This document shows positions 4,100-43,204 of a stretch of DNA of 64,000 bases, one piece after another. Origin of the DNA: Rhodovulum bhavnagarense (GTDB taxonomy: Bacteria; Pseudomonadota; Alphaproteobacteria; Rhodobacterales; Rhodobacteraceae); the NCBI RefSeq assembly GCF_004343505.1, contig NZ_SLXU01000005.1, positions 62,001-126,000 of the forward strand, written 5' to 3'. Positions within the stretch are counted from its first letter, which is position 1. Each line of letters starts with the position of its first letter. Position numbers and translations under genes: made by a program. The notes under the pieces are model-generated. The model saw only the letters and a program-made list of their open reading frames with translations, had not been told where the DNA came from and searched no databases.

Positions 4100-4489
4100 C
4101 TATTCGCCCTTGATCGCCTTTGTCAGACCCGAGATCTTGCGGTTAAGCAGGGTCAGGCTGACCTGGTAACGAAGGGTATTCTCGGCAAATTCCATCTGTT
4201 CGACGGCCAGTTCGACGGTATTGCCGTCAAGCGAGGGATTAACCGGAACGCGATACCCCATCTCGCCCGACGCAAGCCCGCCAGAGCCGGAAAGGTGCCT
4301 GGAATGGGTGCGCATCGTCGCCTCGGGCTCGCCGCGCGCCTCGTCCAGCGCGCGGGTGAAATCGAAATCTCTTGCCTTGAAATTCGGCGTGGCGGCGTTG
4401 GCTATGTTCGAGCCAAGCACCCTCGTGCGCGCTTCGCGCAGGATCAGGGCGTCGGCATGGATACCCAGGTGATCGCGGATCGCAGTCAT
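4100..4489 (-). CDS. flgB: Flagellar proximal rod protein FlgB
   Basis: FlgB is the first rod protein, attaching the rod to FliE and the MS ring. I take the start at the ATG giving MTAIRDHLG. The rod motif ([20 protein letters not shown]) then begins near residue 24 and the protein is 129 residues, as expected. The open frame runs about 190 bases further upstream, but that stretch holds the promoter and has no FlgB-like residues. The sigma-54 promoter lies about 60 bases ahead. This is the first gene of flgBCDEFG. Confidence 0.94.
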
Positions 4490-4539: not shown

Positions 4540-4555
4540 TGGACCGGTATTTGCA
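4540..4555 (+). promoter_or_regulatory. Sigma-54 promoter for the 275-residue gene
   Basis: TGGACC-GGTAT-TTGCA matches the sigma-54 form TGGCAC-N5-TTGCA with exact spacing and invariant GG and GC. The predicted transcript starts near 4566, about 35 bases before the ATG at 4601. Its -12 TGCA is shared with the opposing flgB promoter. Confidence 0.7.
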
Positions 4556-4567
4556 AGGAAGATGCCA
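4552..4567 (-). promoter_or_regulatory. Sigma-54 promoter for the flgB operon
   Basis: Read on the minus strand, TGGCAT-CTTCC-TTGCA is a near-perfect sigma-54 promoter. Predicted transcription starts near 4541, about 50 bases before the flgB start codon. It overlaps the plus-strand promoter at 4540-4555 by the palindromic TGCA, so the two cannot both be occupied by holoenzyme. Confidence 0.85.
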
Positions 4568-4600
4568 ACCTTGTTCCATCGCCATGGAGAAATCCGAGAC

Positions 4601-5428
4601 ATGACCAACCCCCAAGGCCTGCCCGGCGCCGGATGCTGGGCGCCCGACGTGAGCCGGATGATGAAACGGCTGCGAAAACACGACCCTCTTGACCTGAGCA
4701 GGACGCTGGGTGCGACGGCTGCGGCAGAACAGAATTCAGGGCGCCGCCGGCTGCTGATGGCAACCCGGCTGCACGTGATTGCAACCGCGTTGGACAGCGG
4801 GCTTTCGACGCAGGAAAAGCCCGAGGAAAGACCGAGGCGCAAAACGGCGCGAAAGCCCCGCAAGAGCACACCGGACATCCCGGCAGAGAACGCGCCACAC
4901 GCCCAGCCGGAAAGTGAAACATCCCCGAACCCGACCCGCAAACCGCGCAAGAAACCCACGATGTCCACACTCGCCCTTGAAGACGCCGCCGCGTTTCTGG
5001 GTTCGGGGATAATGGATGCCGATACCGACCCGGATCAGTCCGACGACATGCCGCCGCGCGCAATGGACGCGTCAGCCGATCGCGACGCACTTTCCCGGCC
5101 CGACAGGCCCTCCTCGACCATCGACCAGATGAACATCGAAAGCCGGACAGAGCAGGCACCCAGGACGCCCGGCCCCCAGGCCGGAATGGCAAGGGACCGC
5201 TCCGACCAGGCCGATCCCGGCAGTGGATTTGTCACCGTGCCGCAAGAACCCGTCGAATCCGCGCAGGCACTACCCGAAGCGGTCGCGCACGGCAACGCCT
5301 TTGCCGCCGCAGGCTCTAGACGGCGAAAAGGACAGGTCGCGACAATCGATCTGGGCGCCGCGGCGGCGCTGCTGGCCAGCGACGCGATCGGCGGGCGGCA
5401 GGGCGATGACGACCAGGACGAGGATTGA
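4601..5428 (+). CDS. Unknown protein, sigma-54-controlled, flagellar locus
   Basis: I do not recognise this 275-residue protein. After a short N-terminal region it has a basic, proline-rich stretch (residues about 75-120) with two similar segments ([14 protein letters not shown] and [11 protein letters not shown]). It has a weak internal repeat: [18 protein letters not shown] near 124-141 resembles [17 protein letters not shown] near 249-265, and both run into Asp/Gln-rich tails. No membrane segment or signal peptide is visible. The ATG was chosen because the frame upstream overlaps flgB and the promoter. A six-codon ORF (MEKSET, 4584-4604) ends in the ATGA overlap with this start. The promoter makes a flagellar role plausible; the function is unknown. 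Confidence 0.65.
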
Positions 5429-9610: not shown

Positions 9611-9626
9611 TGCAAACCGCGTGCCA
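9611..9626 (-). promoter_or_regulatory. Sigma-54 promoter for flhA - flhF-like - fliA
   Basis: On the minus strand TGGCAC-GCGGT-TTGCA is a consensus sigma-54 promoter. Predicted transcription starts near 9600, leaving a leader of about 70 bases. It is back to back with the flgP promoter at 9664; 37 bases separate the two -24 elements, so one activator-bound site could serve both. Confidence 0.88.
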
Positions 9627-9663: not shown

Positions 9664-9679
9664 TGGCATGGCACTTGCA
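9664..9679 (+). promoter_or_regulatory. Sigma-54 promoter for flgP-flgT-flgA-flgM
   Basis: TGGCAT-GGCAC-TTGCA matches the sigma-54 consensus with the right spacing. The predicted start is near 9690, about 32 bases before the flgP ATG. Confidence 0.87.
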
Positions 9680-26137: not shown

Positions 26138-26177
26138 TTCTTGGGGCTGATACGTGAATCCCGCCAAGGAGCCGACC

Positions 26178-27353
26178 ATGTCCGATATCCTGCTGCTGTC
26201 GCCGAATTTCGTGCGTGCCGATGGCCTTGCCGATCTACTGACCCGGCGCCGCTGTGCCTGCACCGTCGTGGACCGCATCGAGGACCGAAAAGCGGCCATC
26301 CTGGTCTGCGCGCAAGCCCAAGAGGCGGCGCTGGGCGCACGCGAACTTGTCGAGGCGGCGCGCAGCACTGGGGCACGGCAATTGGTCATCGTCGGCGACA
26401 GCCCTCTGGATGCCGGACCGGCACCGCGGATCACCACCGAACTTGGCGGGCGCCTCGTGCGCGTGGGGCTGCCGGCTCCGGCATTGGTCCCGCACATGCT
26501 GCGCGATGGTGGGCTGATGATGCTTGCTGACATGCTGGCTGCACAGATCCAGCCCATGGTGGCCGCCGCCGCCCAAACCGGTCGGCTGATCGACATGGCA
26601 AGCCGGGTGGCAAGAACCGATGTCACCGTGTTCATCAACGGACCGACAGGCACCGGCAAGGAAGTGCTGGGCCGGCTGATCCACGCCCACTCGCCCCGCG
26701 CAGAGGCGCCGTTTATCGCGATCAATTGCGCCGCCATCCCCGGCAACATGCTGGAGGCAATGCTGTTCGGGCATGAAAAGGGCGCCTTTACCGGGGCCTC
26801 GGCCGCCAACAAGGGCCTGATCCGCGCGGCGGAGGGCGGCACGCTGATGCTGGACGAGGTAACGGAAATGTCGCTGGAATTGCAGGCCAAACTGTTGCGG
26901 GTACTTCAAGAGAAAACGGTTACGCCGCTGGGGGCACAGAAGGAACAGAAGGTCGATATCCGCGTCGTCGCCACCTCGAACCGCGACATGATGGAGGCCG
27001 TGCGCGAGGGCAGCTTCCGCGAGGACCTTTATTATCGGCTCAACGTTTTCCCGCTTTCCACCCAGGCGCTGAGACAACGGCGCGAGGACATCCCGGCCCT
27101 TGCTGCCGCCATGGTACGCCGTCATTGCCCCGAAGGTGTCCCCCTGCCCGCGCTGATGCCCGACGCGATCGACACGCTGGTCAGCCATGACTGGCCGGGA
27201 AACGTGCGCGAACTGGAAAACGTCATCCAGCGCGCGCTTGTGTTGCACGATAATGGCCAGATCCGTGCCGATGACATCATGATCGTGGGCTATGACGGGC
27301 TTGAGATGCATCCCGGCGCAGCCCTTGGCGCGCTGAACGCGCAGGCCGCCTGA
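26178..27353 (+). CDS. fleT: FleT-like sigma-54 activator lacking a DNA-binding domain
   Basis: This AAA+ enhancer-binding protein of the FleQ family remodels sigma-54 RNA polymerase. The 391 residues comprise a divergent FleQ-like N-terminal domain (1-125) and an intact AAA+ core. The core shows Walker A GPTGTGKE (155-162), the sigma-54 contact loop GAFTGA (202-207), Walker B GTLMLDE and arginine-finger segment REDLYYRLN. WPGNVREL (339-346) follows. It stops about 45 residues later with no Fis-type helix-turn-helix. R. sphaeroides FleT likewise works with FleQ rather than by binding DNA alone. The ATG after AAGGAG is preferred over a GTG eight codons earlier. FleQ is not in the window. Confidence 0.88.
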   Translation: MSDILLLSPNFVRADGLADLLTRRRCACTVVDRIEDRKAAILVCAQAQEAALGARELVEAARSTGARQLVIVGDSPLDAGPAPRITTELGGRLVRVGLPAPALVPHMLRDGGLMMLADMLAAQIQPMVAAAAQTGRLIDMASRVARTDVTVFINGPTGTGKEVLGRLIHAHSPRAEAPFIAINCAAIPGNMLEAMLFGHEKGAFTGASAANKGLIRAAEGGTLMLDEVTEMSLELQAKLLRVLQEKTVTPLGAQKEQKVDIRVVATSNRDMMEAVREGSFREDLYYRLNVFPLSTQALRQRREDIPALAAAMVRRHCPEGVPLPALMPDAIDTLVSHDWPGNVRELENVIQRALVLHDNGQIRADDIMIVGYDGLEMHPGAALGALNAQAA

Positions 27354-41854: not shown

Positions 41855-43204
41855 TCAGCCTGCCGCCAGCCGGGCCGCGCGACGGCGCTGGAACGAGGAC
41901 GGAATACCGAGCCCCTCGCGATACTTGGCCACGGTGCGACGGGCCAGCCGGATACCATCGCCAGATACGATGCGCGCGATCTCGTCATCGGATAACGGCG
42001 CACCGGGCCGTTCCTCGCGGATCAGGTTCTGGATGCGGTGGCGCACGGCGGCGGCCGATTGGGCCTCGTCGCCCTCTTCGGCCCCCGCCAACGCGGCAGA
42101 GAAAAAGGTCTTTAGCGGGAATGTCCCCTGCGGTGTGGCGATCATCAACCCGGTGGTCACCCGCGAGACCGTGCTTTCATGGACCCCCACCGCCGCGGCG
42201 ACATCGCGCAGGATCATCGGCCGGATACGCGCGGGGCCATATTCCAGGAACTCGGCCTGGCGGCGCACGATTTCGGCCCCCACCTTCAAGGTGGTCTGGT
42301 TGCGGTGCTCGACCGCCCGGCGGAACCAGCGCGCGCTCGACAGCCTCTCGGCCACATAGGGGGCCGCGGCGCGGTCGGCACCGAACATCTCGGCGGCCCG
42401 TTCGTCGACGATCACGGTGGGCAGGGTAGAGTTGTTCAACTCGACCCCCCAGGCCCCCGGACGACCGGTCACGATCAGGTCGGGCGCGCGTTCGGCAGGC
42501 TCTTCCGCGTCAAAGCCCGCGCCCGGCTTGGGGTCGAGGCATCGCAGCAGGCGAAGCTGCGGACGCAAGGCCTCCATGTCGCATTCGCAGGCCCGGCACA
42601 GCGCCTTGAGATCGGCCCGCGCCAAAAGGGATAGATTTTCCAGAAGCCTCTCGAAAAGCGGCGTCAGAAAGCCCCGGTCTGCCGCCTGAAGTTCAAGACA
42701 CTCGGCCAGTGAACGGGCAAACAGCCCGGCCGGTTCGACGCGCTGGACGCGGTTCAGCATTTCTTCGGCGGCATAGATATCCAGCCCCGCGCGCGCGGCG
42801 ATCACCTCAAGCCGATCGCCCAGCCAGCCCGACGGCTCAAGCGCCTCTAGAAACACCTCTGCGGCGATACGCTCGGCGGGGAGATCGAACATCATGTCGA
42901 ACTGCGCCGAGACATGCGCATAAAGCGATTTCTGCCTCTCTTCGGCGCGCATCTGGATAAAGTCGAAATCACCCTCTGCACCGCCGCGTGACATCGGCAA
43001 GGCGGGCGCGACCTCCTGGCGTTTGCGTTCCTGCACCTGCGCGGCCAGCTCTGCCTCGAAAAAGGGATTCTCGGCGGCCTCGGTTTCGAGAAACGACCGC
43101 AGGTCGGCATTGCTCATCTGCAACATGCAGATCGCCTGCTGAAGCTGCGCAGTCACGACAAGCGACTGGCGCTGGCTGACGGACTGGATGGTTTGCAGTT
43201 GCAT
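41855..43204 (-). CDS. rpoN: RNA polymerase sigma-54 factor RpoN (flagellar-locus copy)
   Basis: RpoN directs RNA polymerase to -24/-12 promoters and needs an AAA+ activator. The 449-residue protein has region I (LVVTAQLQQAICMLQMSNAD), an acidic region II, the core-binding domain, the helix-turn-helix-like part (HESTVSRVTTGLMIATPQGT) and the RpoN box ARRTVAKYRE (421-430). It follows an AAAGGAG site. Rhodobacterales often keep several rpoN copies with separate tasks, and RpoN2 of R. sphaeroides serves flagellar genes. Its place among eleven sigma-54 promoters suggests the same here. Confidence 0.96.
   Translation of the reverse strand: MQLQTIQSVSQRQSLVVTAQLQQAICMLQMSNADLRSFLETEAAENPFFEAELAAQVQERKRQEVAPALPMSRGGAEGDFDFIQMRAEERQKSLYAHVSAQFDMMFDLPAERIAAEVFLEALEPSGWLGDRLEVIAARAGLDIYAAEEMLNRVQRVEPAGLFARSLAECLELQAADRGFLTPLFERLLENLSLLARADLKALCRACECDMEALRPQLRLLRCLDPKPGAGFDAEEPAERAPDLIVTGRPGAWGVELNNSTLPTVIVDERAAEMFGADRAAAPYVAERLSSARWFRRAVEHRNQTTLKVGAEIVRRQAEFLEYGPARIRPMILRDVAAAVGVHESTVSRVTTGLMIATPQGTFPLKTFFSAALAGAEEGDEAQSAAAVRHRIQNLIREERPGAPLSDDEIARIVSGDGIRLARRTVAKYREGLGIPSSFQRRRAARLAAG

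Follow-up and report, generated by a model that had tools for sequence, protein, structure and literature searches.

At sigma-70 bidirectional promoters, as described by Warman, Grainger and colleagues (PMC12825309, PMC10268837), RNA polymerase can bind a pseudo-symmetrical element in either orientation; the divergent starts lie close together, and a fraction of these promoters drive two mRNAs of linked genes. Such promoters have a common -10, with starts usually 18 bp apart; PMC10268837 defines them by divergent starts separated by 7-25 bp and by the overlap, on opposite strands, of their key elements. The terms 'rpon' and 'sigma54' each have 0 occurrences in PMC12825309. For flagellar genes, PMC7277832 describes how FleQ/FleT and RpoN2 of C. 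sphaeroides drive class III genes, including those required for completing the basal body and the hook, and PMC11999139 reports four rpoN genes in C. sphaeroides.

Here we analyze a 64,000-nucleotide stretch of Rhodovulum bhavnagarense DNA, hereafter the window, that carries at 4540-4567 a 28-bp imperfect inverted repeat with the architecture TGG-N8-TTGCAA-N8-CCA (TGGACCGGTATTTGCAAGGAAGATGCCA). From its sequence and its conservation in relatives, we read this element as a bidirectional sigma-54 promoter, usable in either direction, and assign that reading a probability of about 0.82.

Two sigma-54 sites with a common -12 beside flgB

The flgB-facing site (TGGCATCTTCCTTGCA, TGGCAT-N5-TTGCA; 4552-4567, minus strand) is near consensus, and the opposite-facing site (TGGACCGGTATTTGCA, TGGACC-N5-TTGCA; 4540-4555, plus strand) has a weaker -24; compared with TGGCACNNNNNTTGCW, they contain one and two mismatches, respectively. 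Both have the GG-N10-GC spacing by which sigma-54 promoters are recognized (near consensus TGGCAC-N5-TTGC). Because the core they have in common, TTGCAA at 4551-4556, is self-complementary, one -12 serves both strands. The central observation of the initial annotation, two opposed sigma-54 sites with a shared palindromic -12, is thus borne out, as is their placement between flgB and an unknown 275-residue gene. The initial annotation had also proposed that the two transcripts converge and overlap for about 25 bases. Counting 12 nt beyond the C of the -12, however, we place the predicted starts at 4541 (leftward, flgB) and 4566 (rightward, the 275-residue gene), which makes them divergent and 25 positions apart, with each start on or beside the -24 of the opposite promoter. 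It is the DNA footprints that overlap instead, and this geometry rules out overlapping transcripts in the window. For the 275-residue gene, called here from 4601, another in-frame ATG is present upstream of the predicted plus-strand start, at 4562. On the minus strand, a poorer sigma-54-like match (TGGAACAAGGTTGGCA, 4563-4578) overlaps the flgB promoter, the TGGCA that forms its -12 doubling as the -24 of that promoter.

Matches to TGGN8TTGCA number 9 in the window, compared with 2.17 expected from shuffles. The double form TGGN8[TC]TGCA[AG]N8CCA is found once, and the much looser TGGN10GCN10CCA four times. The exact arrangement TGGN8TTGCAAN8CCA arose in 0 of 300 mononucleotide shuffles; the complete genome (3.15 Mb) has it at two places, each of them readable on either strand. 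These shuffle and whole-genome counts rule out a chance origin in the window. The second genomic match (L126), which sits inside a long open frame, was discarded as a further element.

We also searched 387 genomes of the class for TGGCAYN5TTGCAAN8CCA, with the reversed pattern as a control. Matches were found in 15 genomes, one in each, and the reversed pattern gave 0. By tblastn, flgB adjoins the element in 13 of the 15 matches (L139 and L140 are the two without it), and the divergent-gene family, represented by its L101 member, was matched in 12 of the 13 flgB-linked loci, the exception being the window's own. Given that 13 of 15 loci have flgB and 12 of those 13 the family protein, the bidirectional pattern is, within this sample of 387 genomes, nearly private to the pair formed by flgB and the divergent gene.

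The gene that the minus-strand site faces, flgB, encodes the proximal rod protein (4100-4489, minus strand; Pfam Flg_bb_rod 1.4e-05, alignment A1), has a predicted leader of 52 nt, and heads the run flgB-flgC-flgD-flgE-flgF-flgG, which extends leftward from 4489 on the minus strand; the identities of flgC to flgG are our own reading of the open reading frames. FlgB is 65% identical to the FlgB of genome G066 (alignment A1). Beyond the 275-residue gene, the minus strand carries a fliA-like sigma factor gene, an unassigned frame where flhF would be expected, and flhA, and the plus strand carries genes like those for LPP20, FlgT and FlgA; flgB, the sigma factor, flhA, LPP20, FlgT and FlgA were identified by Pfam. 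Positions 1-12 kb of the window are part of a flagellar cluster like Fla1 of C. sphaeroides. Near the 5' ends of flhA and of the LPP20/FlgT/FlgA genes, another two strong sigma-54 sites stand in divergent orientation (TGGCACGCGGTTTGCA, 9611-9626, minus strand; TGGCATGGCACTTGCA, 9664-9679, plus strand) and do not overlap.

The same cluster encodes candidate components for sigma-54 transcription. An rpoN gene lies inside it (41855-43204, minus strand; Pfam Sigma54_DBD 2.1e-58), and the second of the genome's two rpoN copies lies outside the flagellar cluster. A sigma-54 activator (AAA+) gene stands upstream of fliF (26154-27353, plus strand), identified as an open reading frame with a PF00158 match at 26565-27056 (88565-89056 on contig C5 of the genome); we infer that it is fleT-like from its position, as in R. 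sphaeroides. It accounts for the single match in the window among the 11 PF00158 matches over cut-off in the genome, and weak matches to this family need not be activators, because it also matches in all 14 control genomes. The cluster is of the Fla1 (fla3-type) kind: the flg operon, fliA, flhA and rpoN share a locus with an activator gene, and flgB is close to that of G066, which we take to be C. sphaeroides. Two more FlgB matches, both distant (29% identity), stand side by side on contig C6 of genome G000 (136193-136882) and probably mark a second flagellar system there.

Conservation, separation and loss of the element

A comparable flgB was found in none of the 15 other genomes of the genus, where the best matches reached only E 1.6e-7 to 4.5e-4, and the divergent gene was likewise absent from all 15 of those searched. 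At E<=1e-15, this type of flgB is present in 14 of 248 genomes of the family, the window's own included. Our sample of 94 loci consists of the window, 13 unnamed loci from the family, and the best 80 flgB loci from named genomes, in which more exist. By our own reading of the frames, 54 of the 94 have the same divergent gene (group A: the window, the 13 unnamed loci and 40 of the best 80 named ones), and the remaining 40 make up group B. The Flavobacteriaceae label of L065, and MAG labels like it, probably come from mis-binned contigs.

All 54 group A loci have a TGGCAY-type site upstream of flgB, TGGCAY being part of the search pattern. The initial annotation held that loss of either -24 element in close relatives would refute it, and most comparable loci show no such loss. 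In 37 of the 54 loci the two -24 elements stand at an unchanged distance, the reverse TGG being read as a mirror-position CCA; these loci account for 31 of the 48 distinct elements. The exact mirror TGG is absent from its usual position in the other 17 loci: in 3 it is displaced, the two promoters having become separated, and 14 lack it, at least 4 of which (L039, L048, L053 and L058) keep GG without the full TGG. As a control, we examined 28 other TGGCAYN5YTGC sites from the group A loci and the window, of which a single one has the mirror CCA, and 32 other flgB promoters of group B, again with one (L096); 8 more group B loci have no such promoter. The corresponding Fisher values, in which relatedness is ignored, are 5e-8 and 7e-9. 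The one control site with the mirror CCA, a match in L055 upstream of a flgG-like frame, was rejected as a further element.

Spacer positions 7-10 and 18-22 of the element have drifted (0.15-0.63 bits), so its conservation is not a matter of recent common descent alone. FlgB identity to the window goes down to 50% (alignment A1). In a FlgB tree of the 54 group A loci, the element is found on both sides of the midpoint root, and 5 changes are counted, of which well-supported branches force 4; this distribution fits an old element with several losses.

This distribution bears on the possibility that both promoters are real and adjacent merely because the intergenic space is short, their overlap having no regulatory meaning. 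The separation tolerated in three relatives and the missing exact reverse TGG in 14 loci would agree with such an arrangement. However, the exact overlap has been kept in 37 of 54 loci over deep divergence of FlgB and through the 5 changes on the tree, and space alone does not force it, because flgB leaders across the loci, measured to the start of the tblastn match and so possibly a few codons off, vary from 20 to 119 nt. We consider short spacing an unlikely explanation.

The three separated loci (L035, L049 and L051) have an insertion between the promoters, and each half retains its own -24 and -12. By coordinate arithmetic, the starts in L049 and L051 have passed each other, giving predicted 5' transcript overlaps of ~22 nt and ~10 nt; there is none in L035. 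Changes in the core are also linked to the reverse -24. An A at position 17 of the element, a base required by the reverse -12 alone, occurs in all 31 elements that have the reverse -24, in 8 of the 17 without it, and in 7 of the 28 control sites.

Loss of the reverse -24 can be followed in a hand-picked set of 22 SAR116-like loci, 16 with it and 6 without. In all six that lack it, a box resembling TGTCGTAA precedes the divergent gene, and the pattern for this box matches 0 of the other 16. Five of the boxes were caught by the pattern, which was written after the boxes had been seen, and that of L078 (TGTCGTAT) was found by eye. Because the six loci (L078, L086, L094, L097, L105 and L107) form one clade and the pattern is post hoc, the replacement of the reverse -24 by this box counts as one event at best; we read it as an exchange of promoters within that clade, the box being perhaps a sigma-28-like promoter. 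A TGTCGTAA / GCCGTAAT-like box is conserved in those six loci upstream of the divergent gene.

We also weighed whether the flgB promoter works alone, with the mirror TGG being either part of an inverted repeat for a dimeric regulator or a leftover. The element is indeed an imperfect inverted repeat, and of its two -24 elements the reverse one is the less complete, with positions 24-25 nearly random (0.11-0.12 bits). Yet its spacing is exactly that of sigma-54, and the split halves that each retain a -24 and a -12 would be unexpected for a dimer site. In addition, most loci have a short divergent leader with a ribosome-binding site, and loss of the mirror TGG accompanies an alternative box in the SAR116-like clade. 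A lone flgB promoter is, in our judgment, highly improbable, and we retain the bidirectional reading in what follows.

The divergent gene and its family

The divergent gene (275 aa; 4601-5428, plus strand) was called as an open reading frame and belongs to an unnamed family found beside flgB. In the window it has a predicted leader of 35 nt, with GGAG at 4586-4589. An ATG was assigned in 31 of the 37 loci, and there the distance from predicted start to divergent ATG is 19-37 nt, a statistic that is partly circular because the starts were chosen among in-frame candidates with weighting for a ribosome site. The annotated start in Octadecabacter is exempt from this: the element is present on a plasmid of Octadecabacter arcticus, and annotated starts give leaders of 22 nt for the divergent gene and 28 nt for flgB. 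NCBI annotates the neighbor gene there as a hypothetical protein.

The family as a whole is fast-evolving and uncharacterized. The N-domain of its members is short and closes with a motif of the type RLGxLAARxxILRxR; an acidic or proline-rich, disordered-looking stretch follows, and many members also have a small C-domain of the type WxRLxILExxEVNGVRFPxGxxIDVxxEDAxKLIxxGKAE. For the L101 member, an AlphaFold model built with 18 sequences (mean pLDDT 73.9, pTM 0.43), predicts three helices in residues 20-81, a low-confidence linker, and a small beta-alpha domain in residues 124-163. The window protein has a short helical N-domain and is otherwise mostly of low complexity. Repeated DLSAAFAAMGD-type motifs, which resemble tandem docking motifs, occur in low-complexity regions of the divergent proteins of L048, L053, L058 and other Rhodobacterales.

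Pfam gave nothing over cut-off for the window protein and 9 relatives, nor did NCBIfam for the window protein and 7 relatives, and a PDB sequence search with the family returned sub-cut-off matches only. The family's sub-cut-off matches were to DUF7210, DUF7302, and low-complexity or chance families. A Foldseek search with the L101 model (mfd98d4f243f4) found nothing at E<=0.001. Among its weak, partial matches, GINS subunits ranked first and the gpFI C-domain further down, a likeness that may reflect a shared small fold of one domain only.

Compared directly with the SAR-type profile A3, the window protein gives no significant match (hhalign probability 0.2). A chain of pairwise hhalign comparisons between hand-chosen groups, with values uncalibrated against a database, connects the window to intermediate Rhodobacterales (85%), these to a second Rhodobacterales group (99%), and the Rhodobacterales groups to the SAR-type proteins (82% and 91%). 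A direct search with the window protein was convincing beside flgB in only 1 of the 13 other family genomes that have this type of flgB (G054, E 8e-7), and the other 9 matches (E 2.6e-4 to 0.009) were in genomes without this flgB. A similar 12-residue stretch is common to the window protein and its relatives. Judged by the intermediates, G054 and synteny, the window protein is a diverged member of the family.

The element also occurs in genome G066 (TGGCATCGTCCTTGCAAGTCCCGGTCCA, L157), with a divergent frame of 388 residues; this genome has 4 rpoN genes, the number given for C. sphaeroides (PMC11999139), and we take it to be that species. Our assignment of RSP_0084 of R. sphaeroides as the divergent gene follows from the adjacency of its locus tag to that of flgB (RSP_0083) and from this identification of G066.

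Proposed operation and comparison with known promoters

The sequences show the paired sites, their conservation, the linked changes in the core and the conserved divergent gene; that both sites fire, where they start, which activator serves them, how unequal their outputs are and that they compete is our inference. What we propose for the element is as follows. RNA polymerase-sigma-54 would dock on it in either orientation, because TTGCAA is symmetric and a TGG is correctly spaced on each side. Docked one way, polymerase would start at about 4541 and transcribe flgBCDEFG; docked the other way, it would start at about 4566 and transcribe the divergent gene. The flgB direction should be favored, because its -24 is near consensus (TGGCAY) and the other has little beyond TGG; that the weaker -24 of the window is TGGACC, not TGGCAC, counts against the bidirectional reading. 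So do the 14 loci without the exact reverse TGG, the 3 with a displaced site, the in-frame ATG at 4562, and the direct search that placed the window protein beside flgB in G054 alone. The same flagellar activator, of the FleQ/FleT type, would be needed for both directions, so that both units would be on together, in one class of the hierarchy. Docking one way would exclude the other at any moment, and repeated firing would yield both transcripts. Competition for the one site, which is likely, would then set the ratio of the two outputs.

The initial annotation had expected flgB and the 275-residue gene to be mutually exclusive or at least to compete. Taken strictly, exclusion would mean a switch, in which occupancy of one direction shuts the other, so that either the rod operon or the divergent gene is expressed in a given cell or growth phase. 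The sites overlap fully, and two holoenzymes should not bind together; moreover, strong activation one way can repress the other way at sigma-70 bidirectional promoters, according to PMC12825309. However, basal activity at the five promoters tested there was reportedly too low to bring about competition, and here both directions presumably require the same activator. Expression data also speak against a switch. In the portion of a table available from PMC9779115, RSP_0083 and RSP_0084 rise together (log2FC 4.65 and 2.86) and also fall together (-2.19 and -1.81). The table is of genes rising most on UdsC overexpression, and their joint rise is therefore partly selection. Even so, this co-change fits coupling better than a switch, though it does not argue against competition. 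We thus keep from the earlier proposal that two holoenzymes should not fit at once, and set aside its on/off form; a switch seems to us quite improbable.

More speculatively, the bidirectional promoter could be ancient and act as a dosage clamp, in which two operons take turns at a single polymerase site with one enhancer and one activator between them, tying the uncharacterized flagellar protein to rod production and buffering it against noise, an arrangement kept across Rhodobacterales, SAR116 and other marine Alphaproteobacteria. We regard this as a tentative idea, possible but rather doubtful.

In bacteria, bidirectional promoters have come under study recently, and in the papers that we found they belong to sigma-70. 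A conserved sigma-54 case would extend the use of promoter symmetry, and selection for it, to activator-dependent transcription. Under sigma-54, the choice of orientation would precede melting and be amenable to study with closed complexes, and the natural split and lost versions are ready-made comparisons. The element would also tie an overlooked protein family to early flagellar assembly.

Our searches of an open-access library found no description of sigma-54 promoters with a common -12; subscription papers on R. sphaeroides flagellar promoters may show the sequence unremarked. The element, a sigma-54 counterpart with a shared -12, is present beside flgB in many Rhodobacter-type and marine bacteria. 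The zraSR/zraP and vnf-linked genes likewise have two divergent sigma-54 promoters and one activator, in one intergenic region, and a shared -12 is not stated in the accessible portions of their descriptions (PMC4987338, PMC9542535). Fla1 of C. sphaeroides (RpoN2, FleQ, FleT) resembles our cluster in content, in its in-cluster rpoN, and in its sigma-54 hierarchy, and the accessible portions of its accounts (PMC7277832, PMC11999139) mention neither a shared element nor a name for the divergent gene.

The principle itself, a symmetrical element that offers two orientations and is taken by one polymerase at a time, is already known for sigma-70 (PMC12825309, PMC10268837). Set against the definition in the accessible part of PMC10268837, the element at flgB has the overlap of key elements, and its predicted starts at 4541 and 4566 are 25 apart. 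In contrast to the promoters described in those portions, its symmetry lies in the sigma-54 -12 and not in the sigma-70 -10, and firing would need an activator ATPase. With its symmetry in the sigma-54 -12, the element would therefore work like the sigma-70 family, with another sigma factor.
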